From positions 1 through 34,207 of the IMG/VR virus record IMGVR_UViG_3300046751_000707: 34,207 nucleotides of DNA; one strand, written 5' to 3'. Both the position numbers and the translations under genes were made by a program. This stretch comes from a virus. The notes under the pieces were generated by a model. That model did not search any database and was not told the DNA's origin. It was given only the letters and a program-made list of their open reading frames with translations. Shown piece by piece: positions 1 to 33,208 of the stretch. The first letter of the stretch is position 1; each line of letters opens with the position of its first letter.

Positions 1-88
1 TCAGCGACTTGAAATACATATCATTGCTGACAAGCCTCTTGTCTGCTTGCGTTCCAATGAACACAAACAATAAAAAAGCGTGGGTCAT
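1..88 (-). CDS. N-terminal part of a small exported or lipoprotein-like phage protein, cut by the window end
   Basis: An ATG at 88 opens a reading frame that runs off base 1: 29 codons, beginning with a short hydrophobic, signal-like stretch (AFLLFVFIGTQ) followed by KRLVSNDMYFKSL. The missing C-terminus appears to be at the other end of the window (34129-34207), where a frame without a start ends in QDVKVY. I recall small proteins of this layout in lysis or fibre regions of marine podoviruses, but the function is unknown. The start lies 6 nt after the stop of the preceding peptide gene, and no strong ribosome binding site is visible. The two halves join in frame only if 3n+1 bases are missing between the window ends. 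Confidence 0.6.
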   Translation of the reverse strand, partial: MTHAFLLFVFIGTQADKRLVSNDMYFKSL

Positions 89-94
89 TCATGA

Positions 95-169
95 TTATTT
101 TCTGTTTTGGATTATGACGACGATCAATAGCGTTATGGTTATCGCATCGATGATTGATAGTGGTATCAT
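95..169 (-). CDS. 24-aa single-pass membrane peptide
   Basis: The ATG at 169 is preceded by GGAAAGA at suitable spacing. The frame encodes 24 residues, of which about 16 are a continuous hydrophobic segment (IIDAITITLLIVVII) ending in a basic tail QNRK, so a single transmembrane helix is expected. It overlaps the stop of the preceding tiny frame by ATGA and lies between the tail-fibre accessory gene and the lysis cassette. A role as a small holin-type or spanin-accessory peptide is possible but unproven. It is too short for usual gene callers. The ribosome binding site and coupling are the main support. Confidence 0.4.
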   Translation of the reverse strand: MIPLSIIDAITITLLIVVIIQNRK

Positions 170-234
170 GTCAGTCTTTCCATAGCTTTAGCAAGATGCA
201 ATGACGCGGCGTGATCAATGTCGGACTCGACCAT
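166..234 (-). CDS. Possible 22-aa peptide coupled to the upstream gene
   Basis: The ATG at 234 follows the stop codon of the upstream gene directly (TAAATG). The frame encodes 22 mostly charged or helical residues and ends by overlapping the next ATG (ATGA). There is no visible Shine-Dalgarno sequence other than possible re-initiation. It may be a real leader peptide or only a chance frame between two genes. Confidence 0.25.
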   Translation of the reverse strand: MVESDIDHAASLHLAKAMERLT

Positions 235-477
235 TTAAGAAGCGTAATCGTTACCAGCCGTGATAGCGGCATTTACTGCTGTCATGTTTTCATCTGTCCA
301 GTAGTCTTTGGCTACCATCAGTTCAAGATGTTCAACATTCCTGTCTACACAGTTCTGCTTCTCTGCGGCTTCTTTGTCAGCCATAGCTTCACCAGCAATG
401 ATGGCATTGATAAGGTCAACACTATCGCCCATAGCTGAATAATGCTTTGCGATTTGTTCTGCTGTTAGCTCATCCAT
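235..477 (-). CDS. Small tail-region protein of unknown function (80 aa)
   Basis: The start is placed at 477 because GGAGAA precedes this ATG; a longer upstream frame begins inside the previous gene. The 80-aa product is acidic and predicted helical, with the recognisable phrase EQIAKHYSAMGDSVDLIN near the N-terminus and RNVEHLELMVAKDYW in the middle. I recall similar short proteins beside tail fibres in marine podoviruses, with no assigned role. It follows the S74 fibre gene with 1 nt between them, so it is co-translated with the late operon. Confidence 0.7.
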   Translation of the reverse strand: MDELTAEQIAKHYSAMGDSVDLINAIIAGEAMADKEAAEKQNCVDRNVEHLELMVAKDYWTDENMTAVNAAITAGNDYAS

Positions 478-478
478 T

Positions 479-2086
479 TTATTCTCCTTCAAGCGTAGAG
501 ACTTTAGCCTCAAGCGTTTCGATGCGGGTCATTGCTTCTTGCAGAGCTTTGACTGCTTTCATATAGAGGACAGAATAATTGACGGTCTTGGTAGTCTCAT
601 TAGTTTCATCATCAATAGACTGACCAACTAAGTTAGGCGAGATAAGCTCAACCTCTTGAGCTATAAGGCCAATTTGAGTGTGAGAACTGTACCCTGTTTC
701 TGCCTTAAAATTATAGTTCCGAACTTGCAGAGCTTTCAAATCATCCCACTGAGATTTAGCATTAACAATGTTTTCTTTAAGTTTTATATCCGAAAGAGAC
801 CCATAAGAATTATTTGCATTTTCTACATCGCCATCGCACATAACACGAAACACTTGACCTGTGAAACTCCCTATGTGTGATGCGGTGTTACAATAAGCAA
901 GCCCAGTAACAGAACCACTAGTATTATTTCTGCCCCAAATCATAGGTGCGGCAGTAGACCAAACATAATTTGTTCCTGCGTTATCAATATAAACTCTAGG
1001 ATTACCATCCCCATCAGACAGCACGACATTGTTGCTGGCTGTGCGGATGTCTAGGCCACCCTGATTGCCAGCATATCTTCCAATGATTGTATTTTTTGTG
1101 CCGCTAGTCATGTCTCCACCAGCATACCTACCAATGTAAGTATTGTGGTCTGCGGAAGTTGCGTTTTGACCAGCGCCAACACCGACAAAGGTTCCATCAC
1201 CTGTGGTAGTAGTCGCGTAACCCGCATGACTTCCGATAGCGACATTAGATGAACCGCTACTGTTTGAAACTAATGCGTTATACCCCATCGCCACATTGTT
1301 CGTGCCTGTCGTATTTAAGAACATACAACTGTCGCCAACAGCCACATTGCCAGCCGCAGTGGTGTTTCCGCTTAAAGCATTTCTTCCAACAGCCACGTTG
1401 TTTGCGCCTGTCGTGTTTGCATCAAGAGATTGCAAGCCGACCGCTACATTTTCTGAGCCTGTAGTGTTTGCCTCTAATGCACCCAAACCAACAGCCGTAT
1501 TACTTGAGCCTGTACTGTTTGATAATAAAGCAATATCGCCAACTGCTGTGTTATAGTTTCCAGTAGAATTTGCGCTTAAAGAAAGATAACCAACTGCTAC
1601 ATGCCTTGTTCCAGTTGTGTTTGCATCTAAACTTTCATATCCAACTGCGGTATTTCTAGCACCTGTTGTATTTAACTTTAATGCAGAATGTCCTACTGCA
1701 ACATTATCTGATGCGGTAGTGTTTTCGCCAAGTGCATTGACGCCGATTGCTATATTCGTTGTGCCTGATGTGTTTGCATCAAGTGCTGATGTGCCGATTG
1801 CTACGTTAGACCCGCCACTAAGCGAACCTCCTCCAAGTGCGGCATCACCTAACGCCACGTTGTTTGTGCCTGTCGGGTAGTTACCGTCCAGCTTGATTGT
1901 GCCATCAACAGAGAGCCCATCAATCGCATCAGTGCCGTTAGCAAATGCGCCTAACTGCTTGGTCAATTCCCGCATAGAGTTATTGACAGCACTTGGCAAC
2001 ATTCCTTCGGCTATAGAAATGCCGCCGATGTCGGTGTTGTTTCCGGCTGTGGAGCCGTCATAGTCTGCGATTTTATCTTTCGACAT
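479..2086 (-). CDS. Tail fibre with YadA-like repeats and a C-terminal S74 autocleaving chaperone domain
   Basis: This 535-aa protein has three parts. Residues 1-50 (MSK..I..Y.....N.DI.GI.I.EG....NN..R.L) match the N-terminus of the neighbouring fibre (2433-3389) and probably anchor it to the tail. Residues about 70-300 are a run of 17-residue repeats of the type TGxxNxAVGxxALxxNT, a trimeric beta-roll seen in YadA-like adhesins. Residues 432-535 are an intramolecular chaperone of the peptidase S74 family: SDIKLKENI at the start carries the conserved cleavage serine, IGLIAQEV follows, and a terminal coiled coil (ALQEAMTRIETLEAKVSTLE) closes it. The family trimerises the fibre and is then cut off. 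GGAGGC precedes the ATG. Likely host-receptor binding. Confidence 0.88.
   Translation of the reverse strand: MSKDKIADYDGSTAGNNTDIGGISIAEGMLPSAVNNSMRELTKQLGAFANGTDAIDGLSVDGTIKLDGNYPTGTNNVALGDAALGGGSLSGGSNVAIGTSALDANTSGTTNIAIGVNALGENTTASDNVAVGHSALKLNTTGARNTAVGYESLDANTTGTRHVAVGYLSLSANSTGNYNTAVGDIALLSNSTGSSNTAVGLGALEANTTGSENVAVGLQSLDANTTGANNVAVGRNALSGNTTAAGNVAVGDSCMFLNTTGTNNVAMGYNALVSNSSGSSNVAIGSHAGYATTTTGDGTFVGVGAGQNATSADHNTYIGRYAGGDMTSGTKNTIIGRYAGNQGGLDIRTASNNVVLSDGDGNPRVYIDNAGTNYVWSTAAPMIWGRNNTSGSVTGLAYCNTASHIGSFTGQVFRVMCDGDVENANNSYGSLSDIKLKENIVNAKSQWDDLKALQVRNYNFKAETGYSSHTQIGLIAQEVELISPNLVGQSIDDETNETTKTVNYSVLYMKAVKALQEAMTRIETLEAKVSTLEGE
1180..1870 (-). repeat. Array of degenerate 51-bp coding repeats in the fibre gene
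   Basis: The DNA encodes about a dozen 17-residue units, each with A(V/I)G near the middle and (T/S)TG or STG at the junction. Units differ in sequence but keep the 51-bp period, as expected for a structural beta-roll that can grow or shrink by recombination between copies. Confidence 0.75.
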
Positions 2087-2105
2087 TATTCAGCCTCCAA
2101 AGCTG

Positions 2106-2396
2106 TTATATTGATGCGTCATCCCGCGCTTTACGATTTTTGTAGTCACTACGTGCAAGCACAAGCGCAACAAAGTCAGCTTGATTTGATGGGATGGCGT
2201 CAGTGAATCCATCATCATTCATTAGCTTAACTGTCCACTCTTGTTGGAATCTTTTCCAACAATTAGCAATCTTGCCATCTACTGCCGCCTGTATCCACGC
2301 ATCTATGCCAGCGTTATCTGTGTCGTTTAACAAATCATTGGACAGGATTTGCTGTTGTAGGTCAGTTAAAACTACTGATTTAGTATGATTTGCCAT
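2106..2396 (-). CDS. Small conserved phage protein between the two tail fibres (96 aa)
   Basis: The ATG at 2396 has a strong AAAGGAGA ribosome binding site. The 96-aa soluble protein contains LTDLQQQILSNDLL, then DAWIQAAVDGKIANCWKRF, and ends in a basic LARSDYKNRKARDD. I recall this pattern from small proteins next to tail fibres in marine phages, where no function is known. Its position between two fibre genes suggests a fibre-associated role such as assembly, but that is inference only. Confidence 0.7.
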   Translation of the reverse strand: MANHTKSVVLTDLQQQILSNDLLNDTDNAGIDAWIQAAVDGKIANCWKRFQQEWTVKLMNDDGFTDAIPSNQADFVALVLARSDYKNRKARDDASI

Positions 2397-2432
2397 TTTG
2401 TGTCTCCTTTAAGACAGGATTGTTTCACCCGA

Positions 2433-3389
2433 TTAACCAAGTAAGTAACCGCTAAAATATGATTCATCGTCTATATCGGCCTGTTGAGTCCCGCCACTTT
2501 GAAAAAGTATAACCTTAGTGGTGTCATTTGCGTCCATATCCGCAACTATTGATATAGACATTGTGCCGTAGAGCATATCGGCTGTGAAATTTGGGTCTAA
2601 TGTCATTACATAAGTGTGATTGGTTGTCTGAATTTTTAACTGATAATAATTAGCACCAGTGTCGATTTGCTCTACCCGCAACTGAGTATCAAGATAATAT
2701 TTACCAGTGACTGGCGCAGTAAATGTGTTGCTTGCAAAGTTAGAACCTACATCAAACCTTTCAGTACCAAATATAATAGTTACCTCTGTATTCAAAGCTA
2801 TGTTATTTTGGTTGCTAGAAGGAATAGCTTGAAACGCTGGCTGGCTTGGTTTTGTAACACGGCCTGACGAATCAATACGCATCCGTTCAGTGTCACCAGT
2901 AAGGAATGTGGTATTCCCTGCAAAGGCATTGCCAAAGGCAACAGTGCCTTCGTAGCCTTTTACATACTGTGTCCCAGAGCCAGAACCACCCATAACAATA
3001 TAGTTGCCGCCTCTGGCTACACGCACAGCGTTGCCTGTTGTGCTTTCTTCAACGTGCAAAGTTTCGCTTGGCGAACTCGTCCCAATGCCCACGTTGCCTG
3101 ACGCAATAATAGTGTCGCCAGTTCCATCAGGGTCAATCGTGATGTCGCCATTCGTATCTGTGGAAGAAATCGTATTGCCATCAAGCCGCAGATTATCGAC
3201 ATTTAGCTGACCCATCGATGGGCTGGTCAAAGCACTTGTGCCATCGTCCATTTCTTTCAGGTGACTCATCAGCGAACGCTGTGCATTATTCAAATTTGAT
3301 GCGGGGCAACCTTCCGAAATGTCAATGCCGTCAACATCCGAATTTGAACTTGGCGTCGAGCTATATTGTGAAATTGCTGTCTTTGACAT
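2433..3389 (-). CDS. Tail fibre / receptor-binding protein with a C1q-like tip
   Basis: A 318-aa fibre. Residues 1-45 (MSKTAISQYSST...GIDISEG...NNAQRSLMSHL) resemble the start of the S74 fibre at 479-2086, so both probably plug into the same tail site. The middle is a beta-rich shaft with IDPDGTGDTIIASGNVGIGTSSP, common in phage fibres. The last 120 residues (from about PAFQAIPSS; then NTFTAPVTGKYYLD) look like a C1q/TNF-type jelly-roll, a frequent trimeric receptor-binding tip. GAGGT precedes the ATG. The C1q assignment is by motif recognition. Confidence 0.8.
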   Translation of the reverse strand: MSKTAISQYSSTPSSNSDVDGIDISEGCPASNLNNAQRSLMSHLKEMDDGTSALTSPSMGQLNVDNLRLDGNTISSTDTNGDITIDPDGTGDTIIASGNVGIGTSSPSETLHVEESTTGNAVRVARGGNYIVMGGSGSGTQYVKGYEGTVAFGNAFAGNTTFLTGDTERMRIDSSGRVTKPSQPAFQAIPSSNQNNIALNTEVTIIFGTERFDVGSNFASNTFTAPVTGKYYLDTQLRVEQIDTGANYYQLKIQTTNHTYVMTLDPNFTADMLYGTMSISIVADMDANDTTKVILFQSGGTQQADIDDESYFSGYLLG

Positions 3390-3396
3390 GCTTACC

Positions 3397-5409
3397 TCAA
3401 TTCGTTAAAAGGCCGGTGCTGGCACCAATGCCGCCACCCAATTTTGATGCTGATATTCCTGAACGCTCCAAGCGAGCTTTTTCACTTGCACGAAGCTGGT
3501 TTAGCCGCCGCAATGTTTCTTTTTGCGATGCCAGATTTGTATCAAACAAATCACCGGATACATTAGTGCCAATGCGCTTGCCTAAGCCACCGCCGCGCGT
3601 TACTAGATCGCTAGAAACACCGCTTATATTTCCTGAAAGTAAGTTCATAAGCAAACCAGCGTCGCGCTGTATGTCACGCCCATCTTCAGTCATAACAGGC
3701 GTGCGGCTACCGGCTGATGGCTTTGTTCTTGCCCGCGTAACAGCCTGATTCATTCGCTGTTCCATCCGGCTTGAGAACGCTTGCCAAGCCTTTGCACCGG
3801 CTTCTGTGTTTGTGTCAAATGTCAGCTTTAGCAAATTACGATAATCTTCATTTCCAAACAAAAACTTTGCATTGTTTTTAAGATCATCTGATTTTGTGCC
3901 TTTGTTTTTGACTGCTTCAGCAACGCCAGCACGAAACGCATCTTTTTCTGTTTCGTTCATATCTTTAACAGCGCGGCGTAGCGATGGAACGCTAAATTCT
4001 TCTTTTGTGCTGAATATTTTGCGGCCTTTTTCGACAGCATCAAATACGCTTTGACGATCGCCAAACTGCTTGCGCGCTTGTGCGTATGCAGGCACTTCAT
4101 CATCGATTGCATCGCGAAAGTTTCTGATTATGTCAGTCAATGCTTTTTTCTCTTGACCGCCAATGCCACTTTGAAATGCTGTGCCAACTTTGTCATCCAA
4201 GCCGCGCTTTATATAATCAAGCTGGCGAACTGTCGGAATGGCATCAGAACGAACCAGATTTCCATCTTTGTTTTTAACAAATAAATTTGAAAAATTTACA
4301 TCTGCCAAACTGTCATCTGTAAGACGCTCACGTTCAAAAAGCCGCTTGCCACGCTGAAACGCATCAACAAAATCATCAGACTTTAGATATCTTTCGACCG
4401 CATCGCTTTGCACTAAACGCTCTGTGCCATCTTCAGCCATATAGGCTTTATCATACGCAGGCTTTGACATTGTTTTGTTTTGCTGAACAAGACCATCGAA
4501 AACTTCTTCGGCGGTTTTACCTGATACAACATTGTCAGCAAGATCGTCTGCAATCTGTTTGCCGCTTTTCATCTGACGATTATCCAAAGCTTCTTCAGCA
4601 ATGGTTCTGGCTTTTGTTGATACGGTGTTTGCGCCCTGTGCTAAACCTCTGCCAGATTCGTTCATAACATCGACCAGCATCGTATCTTCAACGCCGCCAC
4701 GCTTTGCTTGTGCCAGCTTTCTATAAGCCTGCGTCGGTGAAATATCTTCGGCTTCCATTGCCTGCAAAATCTTCAAGTCAGATGCTTTTTGCGCGCCTTT
4801 ATCTGAAATCATATCAGTAGCAGAACGCACACGATTAACTGTGCCTTTAACAAGATTGCCAGCCGCCGGTAATGCCGCACCAAGAGCGCCGCCAGCACCG
4901 GCACCAATCGCCGCGCCTGTCAGACTGCCTTCAAGACCTTCACCGCTACCAAATCCAGCGACCCCGCCAACGCCTGCACCAGCTTTTGCACCAGCTTTAA
5001 GTGCGCCTCTTGCGCCTGCCGCTAGTGCGGCTCGACCAGCGCCATAGCCGCCAGTTAGCAAGCCACCGCCCAATTCCATAGCCAGCGCTTTACCCGCATT
5101 GTCTTTGCGATAATCATCCATATCGGCACGAATGCGACCAACGGCTTCGTCATAGGTTTCATCACCAAGCAGGCTGGCTCCAAGCGCTTCTATTTCATCG
5201 CCAAAGCCCAATGCCAAGCCCTGCCCAAGACCAAATCGAGCAACGTCTTTTAGACCTGTGCCGCGCTCTTGCTTTGCAGGCTTTGAAGAACTAACACCAA
5301 GATCGCGTTCAATTCTGCGGATGACCTTTTTCTGGCCTGCGGCATCTAAGTCGTTAAAGCTGTCGTCAACTTTAACTTTTTTGCCGCCGATATTAAGGGT
5401 GGTTGCCAT
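3397..5409 (-). CDS. Large internal virion / DNA-ejection protein
   Basis: This 670-aa protein is the largest of three consecutive genes that sit where podoviruses encode ejection proteins. The N-terminus (IGGKKVKVDDSFNDLD) is small and soluble. Residues about 85-190 are Gly/Ala-rich and could insert into or cross a membrane (alternating GAGVGGVAGFGSG types). The remainder is charged, helical and probably coiled. I see no lytic transglycosylase motif. Its ATG overlaps the stop of the upstream gene (TAATG). By position it corresponds to T7 gp15/gp16-type proteins that form the trans-envelope conduit, but sequence homology is not claimed. Confidence 0.72.
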   Translation of the reverse strand: MATTLNIGGKKVKVDDSFNDLDAAGQKKVIRRIERDLGVSSSKPAKQERGTGLKDVARFGLGQGLALGFGDEIEALGASLLGDETYDEAVGRIRADMDDYRKDNAGKALAMELGGGLLTGGYGAGRAALAAGARGALKAGAKAGAGVGGVAGFGSGEGLEGSLTGAAIGAGAGGALGAALPAAGNLVKGTVNRVRSATDMISDKGAQKASDLKILQAMEAEDISPTQAYRKLAQAKRGGVEDTMLVDVMNESGRGLAQGANTVSTKARTIAEEALDNRQMKSGKQIADDLADNVVSGKTAEEVFDGLVQQNKTMSKPAYDKAYMAEDGTERLVQSDAVERYLKSDDFVDAFQRGKRLFERERLTDDSLADVNFSNLFVKNKDGNLVRSDAIPTVRQLDYIKRGLDDKVGTAFQSGIGGQEKKALTDIIRNFRDAIDDEVPAYAQARKQFGDRQSVFDAVEKGRKIFSTKEEFSVPSLRRAVKDMNETEKDAFRAGVAEAVKNKGTKSDDLKNNAKFLFGNEDYRNLLKLTFDTNTEAGAKAWQAFSSRMEQRMNQAVTRARTKPSAGSRTPVMTEDGRDIQRDAGLLMNLLSGNISGVSSDLVTRGGGLGKRIGTNVSGDLFDTNLASQKETLRRLNQLRASEKARLERSGISASKLGGGIGASTGLLTN

Positions 5410-6620
5410 TAATCGTCATCCTCCACAACAGAATAACCAACACCGTCAGCCGTTGCCGTATTGTTGAAATCATAGTTATCCAGACCTTTAGCTTTGCGCC
5501 GGTTTTGCACTTTTGCTTTGAGGCGGCGAACTGTTTTGTTTTGAACATCTCTTAGCTTTACAAGAGCGTTTTCAACAGCATCGGTGTTTTTAGACTCAAT
5601 GCCTGTTACCAATTCTTTAATCACTCTGTCAGCATCAGCGTCAGTCTGTACGCCTCTTGCCATCCGCAACAATTCATTGCGGAGCCTATTGATGTAGCGA
5701 TCGAACGATTGTGAATTCATAGCTTCTTGCGTGTCGCCAATACCGGTAGCAAGCGATAAACTGTCACTAACTGAGTCAATAAAACCAAACTCCAATTCAC
5801 CATCAGCAATCATATCCAAAAAGCCGTCAGTTTCAGAAATAAGGTCATTTGTCGACGCGATGTTATCTAACTCATCAGTTTGTGCTTCGATCTGTTTGTC
5901 AGACAAATTAATGTTTTTGGTTTGCTTTTTTGTAGCTTGGCGTTCCAGATATTCTTTAACATCATTGTTTTCGACGATTTTGCTTTCGCCTGTGACCGGA
6001 TCAGTTACGCGGGTAAATGCGCCATTGCCCAAGTCTGTCAGGATTGGGCGGGTTGCAGATGACTCCATTTGCTTCGCTTGAGCCAGCTTATATTGCTGAT
6101 TAATTTCTGCATCTTTGCGCGCCGCTTCGGCTGACTGCGCGCCGGAATAACCAGCCGTTCCAGCCGTTAATGCACGCCCCAAAGCCTGACCAATACTAAC
6201 AGGTGCGCCGGTGCGATTGCCACCAGACTCAAGCAGTGAAGCGCTTGCCGCAAGAATCCCCTGCGTGCGCGGATCGTTAAAGCTTGTGCCAAGTAGGCCA
6301 CCAAAGCCGCCTGTCTCTGCCGGTGTTGCGGCTGGCTGTTCTGCCTGTGGCTGTGGTGCGGCCTGCAACAATGTTGGTGCCGGATTGCGTGCCTGACGCA
6401 TGACTGCATCATCATAAGGCGATGGCATCATTGCTGGCTTTGATTGCGGCAAAACTGTTGGCATAGGCATGCTGGCTTGCATCTGGCGCGGCAATGGCGA
6501 ACGCGTGCGCCGCATGATAGCGTCATCATACATTGTCGGTGCAATAGCCGCAGTCACAGGACGCGATGCCTGTTGAATTGCACGTTGTTCAGCGTCTATG
6601 AAATCAAATAATGAAGCCAT
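5409..6620 (-). CDS. Internal virion / ejection protein (403 aa)
   Basis: GAGGAAA precedes the ATG at 6620. Residues 1-110 are Pro/Gln/Met-rich and disordered, with an internal repeat (MYDDAIMRRTRSPLP and, 40 residues on, PYDDAVMRQARNPAP). Residues about 115-180 resemble the GGALGRALTAGTAG-type segments of phage ejection proteins. The C-terminal third contains LLRMARGVQTDADADRVIKE, a phrase I recall in many podoviral internal proteins. It ends in an acidic tail. It is likely packaged in the capsid and released with the DNA, as judged by position between two other internal-protein candidates. Confidence 0.7.
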   Translation of the reverse strand: MASLFDFIDAEQRAIQQASRPVTAAIAPTMYDDAIMRRTRSPLPRQMQASMPMPTVLPQSKPAMMPSPYDDAVMRQARNPAPTLLQAAPQPQAEQPAATPAETGGFGGLLGTSFNDPRTQGILAASASLLESGGNRTGAPVSIGQALGRALTAGTAGYSGAQSAEAARKDAEINQQYKLAQAKQMESSATRPILTDLGNGAFTRVTDPVTGESKIVENNDVKEYLERQATKKQTKNINLSDKQIEAQTDELDNIASTNDLISETDGFLDMIADGELEFGFIDSVSDSLSLATGIGDTQEAMNSQSFDRYINRLRNELLRMARGVQTDADADRVIKELVTGIESKNTDAVENALVKLRDVQNKTVRRLKAKVQNRRKAKGLDNYDFNNTATADGVGYSVVEDDD

Positions 6621-8042: not shown

Positions 8043-9486
8043 GTGGTCTGCCCTCAATATCTAAGCCCTGCGCAAAATCCCAATCGCCTGAGATGTTCAT
8101 GCGGGCGCGATGAAATCTGCCCTGAACCCGATGTTCACAAAAGCCTTCGTCTGTCAGGCTTGATGCTGTGTCAAAAGTCACTGCATCATCTTGCCTATCC
8201 CGCACGCCGACTTGCATTGTGACCGAACCATCTCTGAAATATGGAACCGTTCGCGCAACCAATGTGTGACGCCCATTTGTCAAAGTGAACTCACCGGTTT
8301 CAATAGTCGCCGGTAGTGGCTGGCCTGTGAAACCATAAATCTTTTTGTTTAGCGATCCACCAAACAAGAACGATCCACCTTTGAAAAGCGGGCTGTCTAA
8401 AGATGCAGGCAGGCTATCAATCGATGATGACAAATTATCAAGTGCTTCTAAGGTGTAACCGGCTGTAAAAAACGGCGCGATTAAATCTGCTTCAACTTCT
8501 GCATATGACCATTTGCCGACAGCATAGTTATAAATAAGAATTTTATCAGGCGTCCCGCCGACTGAGTCATTCGATACAAAAGACCAAGCGACAATCTGGT
8601 TCGTCGGGTCAATAGCGGCTGACATCTTATCAATATGCGCTGAGTTGAAATTGTCAAAAAACCACTTATTGACCTTTTCAGCCCCTATGGCATTGCTTTT
8701 CTGACCGTCGAAAGCGTAAAAGCCATCGTCTGACAAATAGAAAACCAGCCTGCCGATTGATGCTACTGATCCGGCGTAATTACAGCCACGCGCATTTTCA
8801 ATACGATCGATCTGATAGATCAATGGGCTACCAACATAGGTCGCTGTCGCGATCCCGCGTTCTAGCAAAATTACAGCGTAAGAACCGCCAACCAGACCAG
8901 TGATAGCACCAGCATCAACGATATCCTGAAAGTCAGATTGGTTTGTTCCGGTCGTCCATCCGGTTTCATCGTTGATCGCAGACCAACGTGTTCTGAACGG
9001 CACGCGCCCGCTACCTTCGTCAATATTAGCAAGCCAGACCTGATCGCGAACGACTGCGATAAAGTCTGCTTTTGGCGGCGAGTTAGCCACATCGGCGAAA
9101 GCTGATGAACTGCCAAGCGTCCACTTTTGTAAAGTCTCGCCAATACCGCCTGCCGCGATAACGCTTGTGCCAAACTGGACAAACCGCCACTTTTCTTTAG
9201 ATGTCAGGCTATAGCCGCCACCTTTACTTTTGTCATCCAACGCATTTGTGCCAGCGTTAAATGCGTATAACTTGCCAGAGTCGCCGGCAAACAAACTGAC
9301 ATTGTCAGCATTATCTTTTGCCGCAAAAATGCCTTTTAACTCATTTGTGGCGGCATTTGATACTGCCTCAAACGAATTAAGCCCGCGATAGCCTGCGGCG
9401 GCTGGAATTACGTTTTTTGCTACTGTTTCGCCTTTGTTATTCAAGTCGGGCTGATCCGGTAGCCACCCACCACTAAAACCAATCAT
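8029..9486 (-). CDS. Tail-hub / DNA-stabilisation protein with a beta-propeller-like fold
   Basis: The start at 9486 (MIGFSGGWLPDQPDL) overlaps the previous stop by ATGA. The 485-aa product has repeated short WA/W-K strands (KWRFVQFGTSVIAAGG, VWLANIDEGSG, RLVFYLSDDGFYAFDG, KWSYAEVEADLIAPF), as in proteins that close the neck of podoviruses after packaging, of which P22 gp10 is the best known. DNA packaged through the portal would be held by this ring until infection. Assignment rests on strand pattern and its place after the adaptor gene. Confidence 0.68.
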   Translation of the reverse strand: MIGFSGGWLPDQPDLNNKGETVAKNVIPAAAGYRGLNSFEAVSNAATNELKGIFAAKDNADNVSLFAGDSGKLYAFNAGTNALDDKSKGGGYSLTSKEKWRFVQFGTSVIAAGGIGETLQKWTLGSSSAFADVANSPPKADFIAVVRDQVWLANIDEGSGRVPFRTRWSAINDETGWTTGTNQSDFQDIVDAGAITGLVGGSYAVILLERGIATATYVGSPLIYQIDRIENARGCNYAGSVASIGRLVFYLSDDGFYAFDGQKSNAIGAEKVNKWFFDNFNSAHIDKMSAAIDPTNQIVAWSFVSNDSVGGTPDKILIYNYAVGKWSYAEVEADLIAPFFTAGYTLEALDNLSSSIDSLPASLDSPLFKGGSFLFGGSLNKKIYGFTGQPLPATIETGEFTLTNGRHTLVARTVPYFRDGSVTMQVGVRDRQDDAVTFDTASSLTDEGFCEHRVQGRFHRARMNISGDWDFAQGLDIEGRPLGRR

Positions 9487-10208
9487 TGCTGTAACCAAAC
9501 CTCTGTGCCTGCCGAAACTTGACTCCACACTTCAGAGCCAGCCGTGATGTCTGTCCAAGTTTCCGAACCAACGCCAACCAATGACCAATCTTCACCAAGC
9601 ACTTTGCCAACAACGGTGCCAGACACTGCGCACGCGCCTGTCGCTGTCATTGCAAATTCAGCAACCGGTGATGCAGATGTTGATGCGCTTGTATCGACCG
9701 AAGCCGATGCCGTGATGACAATATTTGCCGAAGCCGAAACGGTTGCTGATGTGCTGGCGCTTGCTACTAGCTGGCGAACTGGTGTTGCTGACGCTGTTGC
9801 TGTAGCTGTTACCGAAGCGCTGGCAACCGGTATCTTGATTGCTGTGGCTGTGGCACTTACTGAGCCAACCGAAGCAACCGATGCCGCCATCTGAACGATG
9901 CGAGTCGGCGTTGCTGTAGCTGTTGCCGATGTTGAAACTGTTGCCTCAACTTCGATTGCAAAGACCAGTTCAGCCGTTGCCGTTGCAGACGTTGCCGCCG
10001 TTGCGGATGCCTGCAAAACAGCAAGTGAAGTCAGCGCATCTAAGTTGCCATAACTGTCTAGCTGTTCAAGCGTTCCCCAACTATCAAGCTGGTCAAGCGT
10101 AGGGTTTGACCATTCGACTTTGTGCAGATCAGCATCGGTGTCAAGACTTCCAACAATGCTATCAAGCGCTGTTGTAATCTGGTCAAGATTCGGAATACCC
10201 AATGCCAT
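9483..10208 (-). CDS. Low-complexity Ala/Ser/Thr-rich virion protein
   Basis: GAGGGC precedes the ATG at 10208. Residues 1-60 contain a WGTLEQLDSYGNLDAL-type repeat (LDQLDSWGTLEQLDSYGNLD). Residues about 65-190 are almost only A, S, T and V in ATATA/SASVT patterns. The C-terminus repeats GSETWTDITAGSEVWSQVSA three times. The extended Ala/Ser/Thr body suggests a stiff surface fibre or decoration, possibly glycosylated, but no family is recognised. The DNA is correspondingly repetitive. Confidence 0.6.
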   Translation of the reverse strand: MALGIPNLDQITTALDSIVGSLDTDADLHKVEWSNPTLDQLDSWGTLEQLDSYGNLDALTSLAVLQASATAATSATATAELVFAIEVEATVSTSATATATPTRIVQMAASVASVGSVSATATAIKIPVASASVTATATASATPVRQLVASASTSATVSASANIVITASASVDTSASTSASPVAEFAMTATGACAVSGTVVGKVLGEDWSLVGVGSETWTDITAGSEVWSQVSAGTEVWLQQ

Positions 10209-11649: not shown

Positions 11650-12866
11650 TTAAGCACCTGACAGGCCGATAACTGCGGCATGCGCTTTAGGTGCTTTGAC
11701 CTTCAGTGACCATTCACAAATGATCTGGCGCTTTTCTGCGTCACCTGTTGCGGCAATTTCGTTTTCAGCGAAGTTGCGACCATTAAGTGTGCTGATGCAC
11801 ACATAATCAGGATCGATCAGGAACAGCTTGTCGTCAGACATAAAGCGCGAAGGCGTAATGTCCAAAGTGCCAAAGTCAGTCATATAGACTGACACGGCAC
11901 CTGTAAATTGCGGCAGTTTTGATGCTGTCGCATTCACCTGATTTGTGACCATATTAGTGCCAGCTTGTGCCAGATCAGAGATGTTGGCGCGGTTAGTAGC
12001 ATCACACACAAGCATGCGTGGGTTGCCACCGTCCTGCCATGCCTGTGTCATAGCATTGTCAATTTTGGCAAGAGTCAAAGCGGCTTCTGTACCTGTCAGA
12101 TCAGCAGTGTCAGAACCGTCGCCGGTTGCAAAGCTGATGTCTGATGGTGATGCGTCGCCGTTTGTGATCCATGTGATCAAAGTCGCAGATTTGCGCGGCT
12201 CTGATGCAGATTTTGCAACGTTAAGGTCGCCAACGATTTTTTCAATATCGCGACGAAGCTCAAGTCCTTTTAGAACCTTTTGGTCGTTTGCCTTCAATCA
12301 AGATCGCTAATCTTGATCCGTCTTTCGACTGCCCTGTCTTTCGATCAGGGACGAGACTATATCATCACCCGCGTTTGCGGGGTTGGGCGCTTCCACCGCG
12401 CTTGCGGTGTACTCCTTACGGATAGTCGTTGAACCTTCCCCCTGTGGGGGCTTGGCTGCTGATTGCCATATCCTTACAGACTTAGGTTTCCCAGCAATTC
12501 ACCCAATTTTACTTGCGCTTAATGGTAGGTTAAACCATTGTTAATTAACGCAACCTCAGAATCGCGACCCGCTTTGCTGACGCTATCCAAAGTTTTACTG
12601 ATCAAATACCCTTTTTGTGAGATTTGATGATAGTTACCCATCCGGACTGTGGCTGTTACGCCAGTATCCGACATATCAGCTCCTTCCTGTACGGAATTTT
12701 GTCCCGCGGCAGAAAGCTCCTGAACTTGCCATTCAGTGAAAATACCGTTGCTTGTTTCTTTGTTAGCGGCGGTAAAGATTGGGGTTTCGTCGGAATCAAT
12801 CTTATAGATGATGTCCGCAAGTGTTTCGCGTTCGCCGACGGCGGTTGCGGTGGTTGCTGTAGCCAT
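11650..12866 (-). CDS. Major capsid protein, split by a group I intron (exons 12866-12548 and 12284-11650)
   Basis: Exon 1 starts at an ATG with AAAGGAGG upstream; exon 2 ends with stop at 11650. The unspliced frame hits a stop at 12519 inside the intron. Removing 12547-12285 joins GCG T and AC CAA so that the protein reads DSEVA-Y-QKVLKGLELRRDIE, which restores the phrase EVAYQ...KGxELKRDME I expect in the DUF5309-type capsid family. The spliced gene is 954 nt, 317 aa. Exon 1 carries the N-terminal arm and MGNYHQISQKGYLISKTLD; exon 2 carries ATLITWITNGD and PRMLVCDATNR. Family and HK97 fold are assigned from memory. Exon sum is an exact multiple of three, supporting the splice sites. Confidence 0.85.
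12285..12547 (-). ncRNA. Group I intron (ORF-less, subgroup IA-like) in the capsid gene
   Basis: The catalytic core can be drawn on the minus strand. P1: exon TTGCGT (12553-12548) pairs with the guide GCGCAA (12518-12513), with the obligatory U-G pair at the splice site. P3: TTGGGTG (12506-12500) pairs with CGCCCAA (12389-12383). P4: TGCTG (12496-12492) pairs with CAGCA (12461-12457). P7: GACTAT (12427-12422) pairs with ATAGTC (12360-12355). P8: CCCCGC closed by GCGGG (12382-12368). Two extra hairpins between P7 and P3 (TCC-GTAA-GGA and CACCGC-AAGC-GCGGTG) are a mark of subgroup IA. P3 and P7 interlock as a pseudoknot. The intron ends at G 12285. It has no room for a homing endonuclease. P9-side hairpins (CCCTG..CAGGG; GTC-GAAA-GAC) follow P7. 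Confidence 0.93.
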
Positions 12867-12883: not shown

Positions 12884-13903
12884 TTAACCAAGTAAGAGAT
12901 TAACCGCAGATTCAATACTGCGTTCTGTGTCCAGACGTTTGCGCAACTCGCGCTTGCGCCTGCTCTGGCTTTCACCTTTAGTTTTCGGAGCGCCCGCTTT
13001 TGCCATCTTCGGTGCTTTACGCACCCGCTTTTTAGCTGTGGTGGCTTTTTCATCTAACTGACTAAGCCGCCATGAATCATACAAAGCTTTGACCGCACGA
13101 TGATCTGAAGCCTGCTTGACTTCTTCTTCTGTGTAGCCAATCGTTTTGGCGTATGCGATGACCTTTTGACGTTCGCTTTCACGAACTTTTTCATCACGCC
13201 AAGCCGGTATAACGTCCAGCATTCGCTCTGCCTCATTAGCTAAATGAGCCTGATAGCGATGTTGCTGTTCCGCGCTTTGCTCTTTGGCAATGCGTTGCTG
13301 TTCAACTTGCACATTTCGCAGATGTTCTTTTCGCTCATTGTGCAACCGAACTGCGTCGGCATATTCCATTGGTTCTAACTGTTGCTTGAGGCTATTCCAA
13401 TCCGGCTCTTGACCGGCGCTGGCTTGTAGCATTTCACTCAACTGGTTTAAGCCAATCGCATACTGATCCCGCATTTGCTTCGTTTCAGCCGCTTCGGCCT
13501 CAATCGATTTGCGTTCTTCTGCAAGATTTTGCATGCGTTTTGTGAACGCACTTTGTCTCTGATAACCGGCTAATGCTTCGTCAAGCGTGACCTCTATTTC
13601 TTGACCGTCAACTTTTACGGTGTGAAAAACAGGTTGCTCGTCATCTGCATCATCTTCATCGTCGTCAAAGGCATCTTCCTCATCATCTTCATATTCAGAT
13701 TCTTCGGCTTCAGCTTCGGTTTCATCTTCCGAATCTTCTGCATCAAAATCTTCATAGTCAGCGTCAGAGGGTTGAACATCAGCATCGGCTGGCTGTTCTG
13801 CGGCAAGTTGCTCGTCTGGTTTTTCTGTTACAGAATCCATCAAAAGCGAAGCCGCTTCATTCAAAGAATAATTGCTGGTTTCCGGTGTGGAATTGTCAGC
13901 CAT
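12884..13903 (-). CDS. Capsid scaffolding protein
   Basis: AGGTGA precedes the ATG. The 339-aa protein lies directly upstream of the capsid gene, the usual scaffold position. Residues 1-90 are highly acidic and disordered (runs of D/E). Residues 95-125 contain a small conserved segment (HTVKVDGQEIEVTLDEAL then GYQRQSAFTKRMQ) frequent in podoviral scaffolds. The middle is a long coiled coil, and residues about 285-320 are strongly basic (KKRVRKAPKMAKAGAPKTKG), suitable for binding the capsid's inner face. It is expected to guide shell assembly and leave before packaging. No protease motif is seen. Confidence 0.8.
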   Translation of the reverse strand: MADNSTPETSNYSLNEAASLLMDSVTEKPDEQLAAEQPADADVQPSDADYEDFDAEDSEDETEAEAEESEYEDDEEDAFDDDEDDADDEQPVFHTVKVDGQEIEVTLDEALAGYQRQSAFTKRMQNLAEERKSIEAEAAETKQMRDQYAIGLNQLSEMLQASAGQEPDWNSLKQQLEPMEYADAVRLHNERKEHLRNVQVEQQRIAKEQSAEQQHRYQAHLANEAERMLDVIPAWRDEKVRESERQKVIAYAKTIGYTEEEVKQASDHRAVKALYDSWRLSQLDEKATTAKKRVRKAPKMAKAGAPKTKGESQSRRKRELRKRLDTERSIESAVNLLLG

Positions 13904-29239: not shown

Positions 29240-29418
29240 TTGACGATCGTTGCGGAATCTTCCGCTTTGTCCCGCATAGCGATGTCAGCGCCTACGAACA
29301 AAAAGGCTGGCATATAGCCAGCGATCTTGCAGACAGCCATCATGGGCGGCACGCTGTTATAATGCGGAAAGACGACCGGCTATCGCCTCAATATCGACCG
29401 GTGACTGCGCCTGATTGA
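29236..29418 (+). CDS. Last gene of the rightward early operon (60 aa), overlapping the integrase tail
   Basis: A GTG at 29236 overlaps the previous stop (GTGA). The product contains GIFRFVPHSDVSAYEQKGWH then DLADSHHGRHAVIMRKDD. I recall this phrase from short phage proteins at the end of early operons, with no assigned role. Its last 62 nt are antisense to the 3' end of the integrase, so transcription of one could affect the other. No terminator is seen between them. Confidence 0.6.
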   Translation: MIDDRCGIFRFVPHSDVSAYEQKGWHIASDLADSHHGRHAVIMRKDDRLSPQYRPVTAPD

Positions 29419-30463
29419 TGTCTGTAATAGTGTAATGCACTTGAGCCACATTGCTTTTCTTTGAGTGTCCCATCCGATATTTGCGGATCGAATCTGGCAC
29501 GCCAGCTAACTCCATCTGCGTATGATAGAATTTGCGGAAGCCACCAATGCCGTGAAACTCAACGCCGGCATGCTTACACAAAGTTTCAAGCAATCCTGTC
29601 CAGCTTTTTTGATCTGCCATTAAATTGCGCGCAGATGGAAAAACATACATTTCAGATGGGCATTGCAGTTTCCACTCGCGCATCAATGTCCATAGCTTAG
29701 TCGTTAGCGGCAACGTGCGGATGCGGAACTCTGTTTTTGTTTCTTGCAGGCCACCGCGATAACCTGTGCGGCGTACTGTTAAAGTGCCTGCCTTTAGGTC
29801 AACGCTGTCCCACAACAGCCCCTGCATCTCATTAGCCGCTAGTCCTGTCAGTGATGCAAGCGTGATAAACGTGCGCAAATACTGAGTCATATCTTGCTCA
29901 AGCATTTTGTTAATATCATCGACCGTGTAACCGCCACGTTCTTTTTGTGCGCCGGTAATCTTTTCGCGCGACTCTCTATGGCATGGATTGCTGTAGATAT
30001 AGCCTTTATCCAATGCGTATTTGCAAACCATGTTAAGGCTGGCAATGATATTGCGAATTGATTTAGGGCTACAGCCTTCGATTGTCTTTTCAGTGATGAA
30101 CTGATTAACATCGCCGACCGTCAAGCGTGCCATCTGGATCGATCCCAGCAATGGCAGAATGTGCAGGCGTATGTGCCGTTTATCATTGTCGAAGGTCTGC
30201 GGGCGCATTTTGATCCCGACCAGCCGTTGACGGTTTTCAATGGCCTCATACGCAACCTGTTCAAGCGTTGCTTTGTTGGCGTTATGCTTACCAGCCACTA
30301 ATTCGTCACGCAGTTCTTCACGCCGCTTAGACCAAGCCTTCGGGCAGGCTGGTGTGAATACCCGACGCGATTTGCCGGTTAGGTCACGATAATAAATAAT
30401 GCCAACTTCTTTGCCGCGCTTCATTGCCGTTTTATAAGTTTCGGTGATTGTGATGTCGCTCAT
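29357..30463 (-). CDS. int: Tyrosine integrase, with altered catalytic boxes
   Basis: The 368-aa protein has an N-terminal arm-binding part, a SAM-like core-binding domain (about residues 65-165) and the catalytic domain. Lys 243 (ETKTEFRIRTLPL), Arg 310 (GGFRKFYHT), His 333 (YRMGHSKK) and Tyr 344 (VHYTI) fit the family. Box I reads TGLAANEM where TGLRxxE is expected, so Ala 209 replaces the first Arg, and the box II His position is Gly 307. Next to attP it should insert the phage at tRNA-fMet. GGAGAG before the ATG coincides with the stop of the gene upstream. Confidence 0.88.
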   Translation of the reverse strand: MSDITITETYKTAMKRGKEVGIIYYRDLTGKSRRVFTPACPKAWSKRREELRDELVAGKHNANKATLEQVAYEAIENRQRLVGIKMRPQTFDNDKRHIRLHILPLLGSIQMARLTVGDVNQFITEKTIEGCSPKSIRNIIASLNMVCKYALDKGYIYSNPCHRESREKITGAQKERGGYTVDDINKMLEQDMTQYLRTFITLASLTGLAANEMQGLLWDSVDLKAGTLTVRRTGYRGGLQETKTEFRIRTLPLTTKLWTLMREWKLQCPSEMYVFPSARNLMADQKSWTGLLETLCKHAGVEFHGIGGFRKFYHTQMELAGVPDSIRKYRMGHSKKSNVAQVHYTITDINQAQSPVDIEAIAGRLSAL

Positions 30464-31442: not shown

Positions 31443-31493
<51 letters not shown>

Positions 31494-31526
31494 CAAAAAC
31501 CGCAGAAAACCGCCAGAGAATCGGGC

Positions 31527-32609: not shown

Positions 32610-32820
32610 CGACCGGCTCCTTCTGCATCATCTTGCTTGCCACAACGCCTAAACGATAAAGCGCATCTGTCATCGGGCTATCAGATGCTTTTACGCCTCT
32701 GCCGGTCAGAAACACTTCAACAGGTTCTCCGGTGTTCGGATGATATGAAACCGTGACGGTCATACCTTCACCAACATCTTGAGATTCGCAGGGGCGTCGA
32801 TTAGGCAGACTTTTTTGCAT
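32593..32820 (-). CDS. TSCPD-domain protein (75 aa)
   Basis: The start at 32820 (MQKSLPNRRPCESQ) is chosen over a longer frame that lies inside the previous gene. TVTVSYHPNTGEPVEVFLTG then MTDALYRLGVVASKMMQKEP is the TSCPD pattern seen at the C-terminus of some ribonucleotide reductases and as single small proteins in marine phages. No role is established for the single-domain form. It overlaps the lysozyme by 17 nt and the nuclease gene by 20 nt. Confidence 0.7.
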   Translation of the reverse strand: MQKSLPNRRPCESQDVGEGMTVTVSYHPNTGEPVEVFLTGRGVKASDSPMTDALYRLGVVASKMMQKEPVDDKVA

Positions 32821-33208
32821 TGAGTTTCTCCATTGTGCTGTGAAATGAATTAGCTTCGGCATCAATGTCGTCAAAGAAAACTTTGGTTCGACTCATTGTA
32901 ATTGTATTGATGTCGAATATAGGCACGAAGAATACGCGCCTGTGGGGGATGGATACGCATGCCGCAAAATCATAATCGTCTGAAGTTGGTCTGCGCTTTT
33001 TGCCGCCAACGCCAAAATGAAATTGCAGTTTATTTGGTCGTTCTGTGTGGTAGGTCGAAGCCTTCACCTGACATCTATATATATAAGTGTCGCGAGTAAC
33101 GATTAAATCATAGCCGCGCGATGGGCAAAGAACAGCTTGCCAGCCCTGCAACTCTATAGACGCGCAGGCGATAAACTCACCTATGCGGCCTGTTGAGACT
33201 TCCAGCAT
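32801..33208 (-). CDS. PD-(D/E)XK nuclease-like protein in the lysis cassette (135 aa)
   Basis: The product begins STGRIGEFIACASIELQGW (Glu 11), followed by GYDLIVTRD (Asp 34) and YRCQVKAS (Gln 47-Val-Lys 49): the E..D..QxK pattern of the restriction-like nuclease fold in Hjc-like and related families. The later part has DYDFAACVSIPHRRVFFVPI. It starts directly after the previous stop (TAAATG). A nuclease at the end of the late operon might degrade host DNA, or process phage DNA; the substrate is unknown. Confidence 0.7.
   Translation of the reverse strand: MLEVSTGRIGEFIACASIELQGWQAVLCPSRGYDLIVTRDTYIYRCQVKASTYHTERPNKLQFHFGVGGKKRRPTSDDYDFAACVSIPHRRVFFVPIFDINTITMSRTKVFFDDIDAEANSFHSTMEKLNAKKSA

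Follow-up and report, generated by a model that had tools for sequence, protein, structure and literature searches.

The major capsid gene of the virus analyzed here is interrupted by a short group I intron that holds no open reading frame (ORF), and the interrupting RNA almost certainly excises itself from the capsid message. The window, i.e., the whole stretch of DNA that was analyzed, is a virus record of 34,207 bases, and the capsid intron is the sole match to the group I intron model RF00028 in that record. Comparison of its anatomy, reading frame and relatives makes it very probable that the element is an ORF-less, self-splicing group IA intron of an SU10-type capsid gene, mobile or selfish in character, gained by recombination and nearly neutral.

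The capsid gene lies on the minus strand, downstream of a scaffolding gene (head; phrog_3927) at 12884–13903. Its frame opens at 12866, runs into the intron and ends after 115 residues at a TAA (12521–12519), the position at which a preliminary description of the window had placed the break, and a second minus-strand ORF picks up at about 12297. Removal of 12547–12285 joins T12548 to A12284, bringing together the last letters of exon 1 (GTTGCGT) and the first of exon 2 (ACCAAAAGG), and yields a single protein of 317 amino acids with EVAYQKVLKGLELRRD at the join. The spliced protein matches PF17236 (SU10_MCP) with an E-value of 1.6e-75 and 254.8 bits, from profile position 3 to 291 of 292, and the major head protein family phrog_1328 with an E-value of 8.4e-77. 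The gene thus belongs to the SU10-type family, with the model covered along its length, and excision between T12548 and A12284 restores the frame as had been proposed. A capsid frame that is interrupted and resumes downstream might also be produced by an intein, a programmed frameshift or a readthrough insert rather than an intron, but these readings are scarcely credible for an insert that carries an in-frame TAA, comprises a full group I core and has no counterpart, as inserted residues, in the proteins of the relatives. The features of the gene and its intron are collected in Table 1.

Table 1. Features of the interrupted capsid gene and its intron, in window coordinates.
Feature	Position	Strand	Basis or remark
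Exon 1, major capsid gene: 106 codons plus base 1 of codon 107 (Tyr)	12548..12866	-	PF17236, phrog_1328
P1 exon side UUGCGU, last U in U.G wobble at 5′ splice site	12548..12553	-	
Group I intron, 263 nt, ORF-less, subgroup IA by anatomy	12285..12547	-	RF00028, intron-less relatives, covariation
In-frame TAA, ends translation of unspliced RNA	12519..12521	-	directly ahead of guide sequence and catalytic core
Internal guide sequence GCGCAA (P1 intron side)	12513..12518	-	
P3 5′ strand UUGGGUG	12500..12506	-	helix 1, 99.1% paired, four pairs with two-sided changes
P4-P5 domain (P4: 12497-12492 with 12461-12456)	12456..12497	-	helix 2, 93.8% paired
P7 5′ strand GACUA, guanosine-binding helix, pseudoknotted with P3	12423..12427	-	invariant in 16/16
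P7.1 and P7.2 hairpins, between P7 and P3 3′ strand	12390..12422	-	helices 7 and 8; 100% and 89% paired; P7.2 covaries
P3 3′ strand CGCCCAA	12383..12389	-	
P8 hairpin	12368..12381	-	helix 9, 74.6% paired
P7 3′ strand UAGUC	12355..12359	-	
P9, P9.1 and P9.2 hairpins	12293..12354	-	helices 10-12
Terminal G of intron (3′ splice site)	12285..12285	-	
Exon 2, major capsid gene: remainder of codon 107 through stop	11650..12284	-	spliced-protein match, relatives

The identity of the intron is established by its fold. RF00028 is matched at 12541–12332 over the full model (1–253) with 84.4 bits and an E-value of 2.7e-20, the gathering score being 50, and the group I intron that the preliminary description had recognized from the sequence alone is upheld by this covariance search. 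The helices that it had named, P1, P3, P4, P7 and P8, were all recovered; P3 and P7 interlock in the pseudoknot by which group I introns are recognized, and the U.G wobble at the 5′ splice site and the terminal G are likewise those of a group I intron. For the homologous introns, boundaries were set under the requirement that the exon end in T and the intron in G, and their agreement is therefore in part built in. No ORF of 60 or more amino acids is confined to the intron, in line with its initial reading as ORF-less, and its 263 nt hold no homing endonuclease ORF, which supports the earlier view that it does not home autonomously.

Covariation was assessed in an alignment of 16 capsid introns, with the structure from P3 to P9.2 and the P7 pseudoknot scored; the rows for L103 and L108 carry about 38 nt extra at the 3′ end, outside the scored helices. 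Among the 16 homologues 92.4% of stem cells were paired, compared with 74.2% in shuffled alignments and 31–44% in slid versions of the structure, the latter comparison being somewhat flattering because the structure was written from the window's own row. Two-sided changes occurred in 33 of 56 pairs (23.2 in shuffles) and the covariation score was 0.478 (0.148 in shuffles), with none of 500 shuffles as high by any measure. Most helices covary strongly. P3 covaries, its strands reading UUGGGUG/CGCCCAA in the window intron and CUGUGUG/CGCACAG in that of phage C72C1; P7, being invariant in the 16 sequences, is paired without covariation. Hairpins P7.1 and P7.2 between P7 and the P3 3′ strand are the mark of subgroup IA, and the window intron is a member of this subgroup by their presence. 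Because IA2 makes up more than half of viral group I introns (PMC11835236), assignment to IA2 is likely.

With these splice sites the intron splits codon 107 after its first base. On unspliced mRNA, ribosomes would be expected to halt at the TAA ahead of the guide sequence, so that they would not disturb folding of the core. By established group I biochemistry, the 5′ cut, after U12548, would then be made by exogenous guanosine bound at P7; the U released in this way would attack the RNA behind G12285 and ligate the two exons with the frame intact. The exon-1 frame stops within 29 nt, before P3, in all 12 distinct introns with set boundaries, a result with a probability of 3.5e-6 under uniform codons, a figure that relatedness among the introns makes too extreme. 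In-frame stops of this early kind have been described as keeping ribosomes off the intron fold (PMC3984707). The intron itself would have been gained by DNA recombination, most likely by homing with a nuclease acting in trans or coming from a co-infecting phage, and would be retained because its excision makes it nearly neutral.

Relatives that lack the intron were sought, as had been suggested, and five viral contigs (L002–L006) encode an uninterrupted capsid protein 98–99% identical to that of the window, none of them with an encoded insert or a truncated exon 1. Their DNA is 94–98% identical to the window in the aligned flanks on both sides and breaks exactly at the intron site; the intron is missing from most of the window's close relatives. 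The closest intron-less relative, record 3300046170_000303 (34,311 bases), is mostly 94–99% identical to the window across most of its length, with a few exceptional regions, e.g., parts of putative tail genes at 1–5900. From -94 to +120 of the join, the two records differ only by silent changes at -8, -2, and +1, the clustering of which beside the join has a post hoc p of 0.0065. Since position -2 is one of those paired to the guide sequence, these changes fit short co-conversion or selection on P1 pairing equally, and the sign of co-conversion in the window itself is slight.

Two further explanations bear on what the intron does in its gene. As the source is a metagenomic contig, the intron might be a nonfunctional remnant that leaves the phage with a broken capsid gene, which is very improbable given that the core is fully conserved, P1 is matched to its own exon, both exons are open with 98–99% protein identity to intact relatives, and the other structural genes of the phage look intact. 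The intron might otherwise be a regulatory switch, in which splicing efficiency, tied to translation or growth state, sets capsid output. Its location in the capsid gene and an in-frame stop ahead of the core, which would couple translation to splicing, suit such a role, as does the dependence of T4 intron splicing on translation and growth state announced in a title cited in PMC3984707 (Sandegren and Sjoberg, 2007). A switch is nevertheless unlikely: any control must be dispensable because most close relatives are without the intron, the variation of sites and introns among phages is more readily expected of a parasite than of a conserved switch, and the capsid intron of mycobacteriophage LittleE is reported to be efficiently spliced (PMC3706429). 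A nearly neutral, mobile intron is the preferred reading.

Elsewhere in the window, a 241-aa protein encoded at 9483–10208 consists mostly of Ala/Thr/Ser-rich, TATAS-like repeats. Near a tyrosine integrase gene (29357–30463), the stretch 31447–31504 gives an RF00005 tRNA match of 32.2 bits (E 0.0044) at which ARAGORN finds no tRNA, and may be a tRNA-gene fragment belonging to an attachment site. A search for the host by way of prophages yielded no relative among genome_contigs.

Codon 107 is occupied by introns in other phages as well. The annotated record nearest to the window's capsid protein, phage C72C1 (GenBank OQ984150; 64%), carries an ORF-less intron of 251 nt that interrupts codon 107 in the same phase, shares its P1 sequence with the window intron and is 76% identical to it over 234 nt, and codon-107 introns occur further in L085, L110, L120, L123, L252, L248, L218, and L262. 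In an intron tree of 198 columns, whose paired sites are not independent and which includes the second introns of L252, L218, and L262, a single clade of the ten codon-107 introns is rejected at a log-likelihood cost of 132.7 (p-AU 6e-6), and at p 1.5e-6 when L248 and L252 are left out. The tree does not place the window and C72C1 introns as sisters, and the window intron is nearest to introns of another capsid family, phrog_9953 (83% over 229 nt), with weak tree support. These results can be read to mean that codon 107 was colonized, or the intron there replaced, more than once. The exact 5′ junction of the window's intron was absent from the other contigs searched. In the C72C1 record the annotation breaks the capsid gene (8530–9731; L082:3001–4202) into two 'major head protein' fragments and places three reverse-strand hypothetical genes across the intron and adjoining exon, likely an error caused by the intron. 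A literature search on C72C1 returned nothing.

Signs of movement are seen around the C72C1 intron. C72C1 and L123/L085 share an identical 251-nt intron and an identical 100 nt of exon before it (100%), and the next 100 nt of exon are 82% identical. L330, in which the site is empty, is 95–99% identical to C72C1 (L329) further upstream, and identity falls to 67–79% over the 200 nt immediately preceding the site. Such a footprint is what transfer leaves and may represent co-conversion during a recent one; ordinary recombination with a divergent allele could also have produced it. Homing endonucleases were found neither in the intron nor among the window proteins scanned, nor in the annotation of C72C1, nor, with 17 Pfam families, among 104 proteins encoded near eight SU10 capsid genes with introns. 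A 135-aa protein of the window (32801–33208) gives a weak, below-cut-off match of 9.8e-5 to PDDEXK_5, a family that includes an intron-encoded nuclease. It was considered as a trans-acting mover and rejected, as it does not track the intron, being 98% identical in the intron-less sister 3300046170_000303 and having distant homologues (35–36%) in three other records with an uninterrupted capsid gene. Mobilization of the window intron in trans is compatible with these findings.

The window intron has many counterparts at other positions in related genes. SU10-type capsid genes contain ORF-less introns at no fewer than seven sites and up to three per gene. Aside from codon 107, these sites are codon 19 (L038, L059, L060), codon 26 (L100, L101, L223), codon 51 (L096), codon 55 (L103, L108), codon 76 (L084, L090, L104, L105, L113, L117), and codon 113–114 (L119, L209), with codons 59 and 244 less certain. 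Splice sites of homologues were set with several reference sequences; boundaries are uncertain for L096, L209, L212, L223, and L257, and none were obtained for L266. Introns with set boundaries are about 250–280 nt long and hence have no room for an endonuclease gene. The SU10-type gene of L084 contains three introns in a row (matches at 534–743, 855–1073, and 1171–1364), all above the gathering score, the second near codon 101 by reading of the sequence. L096, L257, and L218 each have two RF00028 matches, and L252 has a second intron core. Outside the SU10 type, three group I introns were observed in and around one phrog_9953 capsid gene in L089 and L098, two in a phrog_3437 capsid gene in L122 and L112, and three matches in L093.

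The distribution of the introns was surveyed by scanning viral contigs with motifs of the intron itself. A scan for the P8-P7 segment alone, without capsid sequence, found 41 stretches, about 35 of which lie in capsid genes, a fraction that is biased and non-independent in that the motif was derived from capsid introns and several contigs are near-copies. The 35 capsid cases comprise 17 of SU10 type, eight of phrog_3437, eight of phrog_9953, and one each of T7-like phrog_267 and gp23-like phrog_1357; the remaining stretches adjoin genes for a glycosyltransferase (two), a DNA polymerase, a ribonucleotide reductase, a possible tail protein and one unassigned frame. Genes were assigned by clustering the flanking frames and scanning representatives against PHROG rather than contig by contig. 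In the glycosyltransferase cases, L097 and L118, the frame upstream of the intron looks nuclease-like by eye. When the viral contigs were scanned again with a broader P7 motif, at least 79 further loci emerged, and at least 16 of 75 downstream frames matched capsid families (phrog_1328, 8; phrog_1357, 4; phrog_267, 4). Among the matches listed, single-strand binding protein (5) and terminase (5) were fewer than capsid, and SU10_MCP was the commonest Pfam family. The picture looks different in cultured phages: the best 30 of 326 records with similarity to the introns involve DNA polymerase, thymidylate synthase, terminase and other genes, with C72C1 the only capsid case among these 30. The Silence paper was considered as a precedent for a capsid intron and rejected, the intron there lying in a terminase gene.

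Among uncultured phages, shell genes appear to harbor introns of this kind unexpectedly often and to have acquired them repeatedly. A bolder proposal, offered tentatively, is that they form a capsid-specialized guild of ORF-less group IA introns that crosses unrelated capsid families without an endonuclease and repeatedly enters the same positions, perhaps spread by the nucleases of co-infecting phages or by reverse splicing into abundant late mRNA. Phage group I introns are described in a 2025 paper (PMC12350094) as having an apparent, unexplained preference for genes of nucleotide synthesis and DNA metabolism; in the environmental phage contigs studied here, one intron type is found most often in capsid genes. 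Since introns were gained independently at identical positions, their choice of target can be tested by comparison. There is also a practical cost: where an intron-split capsid gene is annotated as fragments, as in C72C1, capsid-based phage classification suffers. Capsid-gene introns are already known from LittleE and crAss-like phages, to which the window intron adds a member; no description of SU10-type capsid genes colonized repeatedly and at multiple sites by ORF-less introns emerged from a literature search conducted mostly outside subscription journals.

Among known systems, C72C1 agrees with the window in gene family, codon 107 position, phase and absence of an ORF, its intron differing in length and in not being a sister of the window's. 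The T4 introns td, nrdB, and nrdD have an IA anatomy with P7.1/P7.2, and the window intron resembles them in this and in its early in-frame stop, a feature of T4-type IA introns (PMC3984707); the T4 introns, however, reside in nucleotide metabolism genes with associated endonuclease ORFs, whereas the window intron resides in a capsid gene with none. In collaborative homing, ORF-less phage introns are moved by free-standing nucleases (PMC3984707); the window intron is likewise ORF-less and its site could be cut by such an enzyme, although none was found around it. Jug phages have many short introns, with splicing backed by metatranscriptomes for 37 of 76 (PMC12363816). The crAss-like phages of the Delta and Zeta groups have capsid-gene introns, with one gene split into five fragments (PMC7886860), and share with the SU10-type genes described here an interrupted capsid gene and, in several of the latter, multiple introns per gene; their introns were recognized mainly by encoded endonuclease domains in larger gut phages, whereas that of the window is ORF-less in a 34-kb record. 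In LittleE (Cluster J), splicing of the capsid intron was proven by RT-PCR and N-terminal sequencing in a study that also cites lactococcal phage Tuc2009 (PMC3706429). The LittleE intron is 819 bp long with a LAGLIDADG-like endonuclease gene and interrupts the HK97-like capsid gene of a large siphophage, unlike the shorter, ORF-less intron of the SU10-type gene, but both lie in a major capsid gene, that of LittleE is also thought to be group I, and both are preceded by U and end in G.
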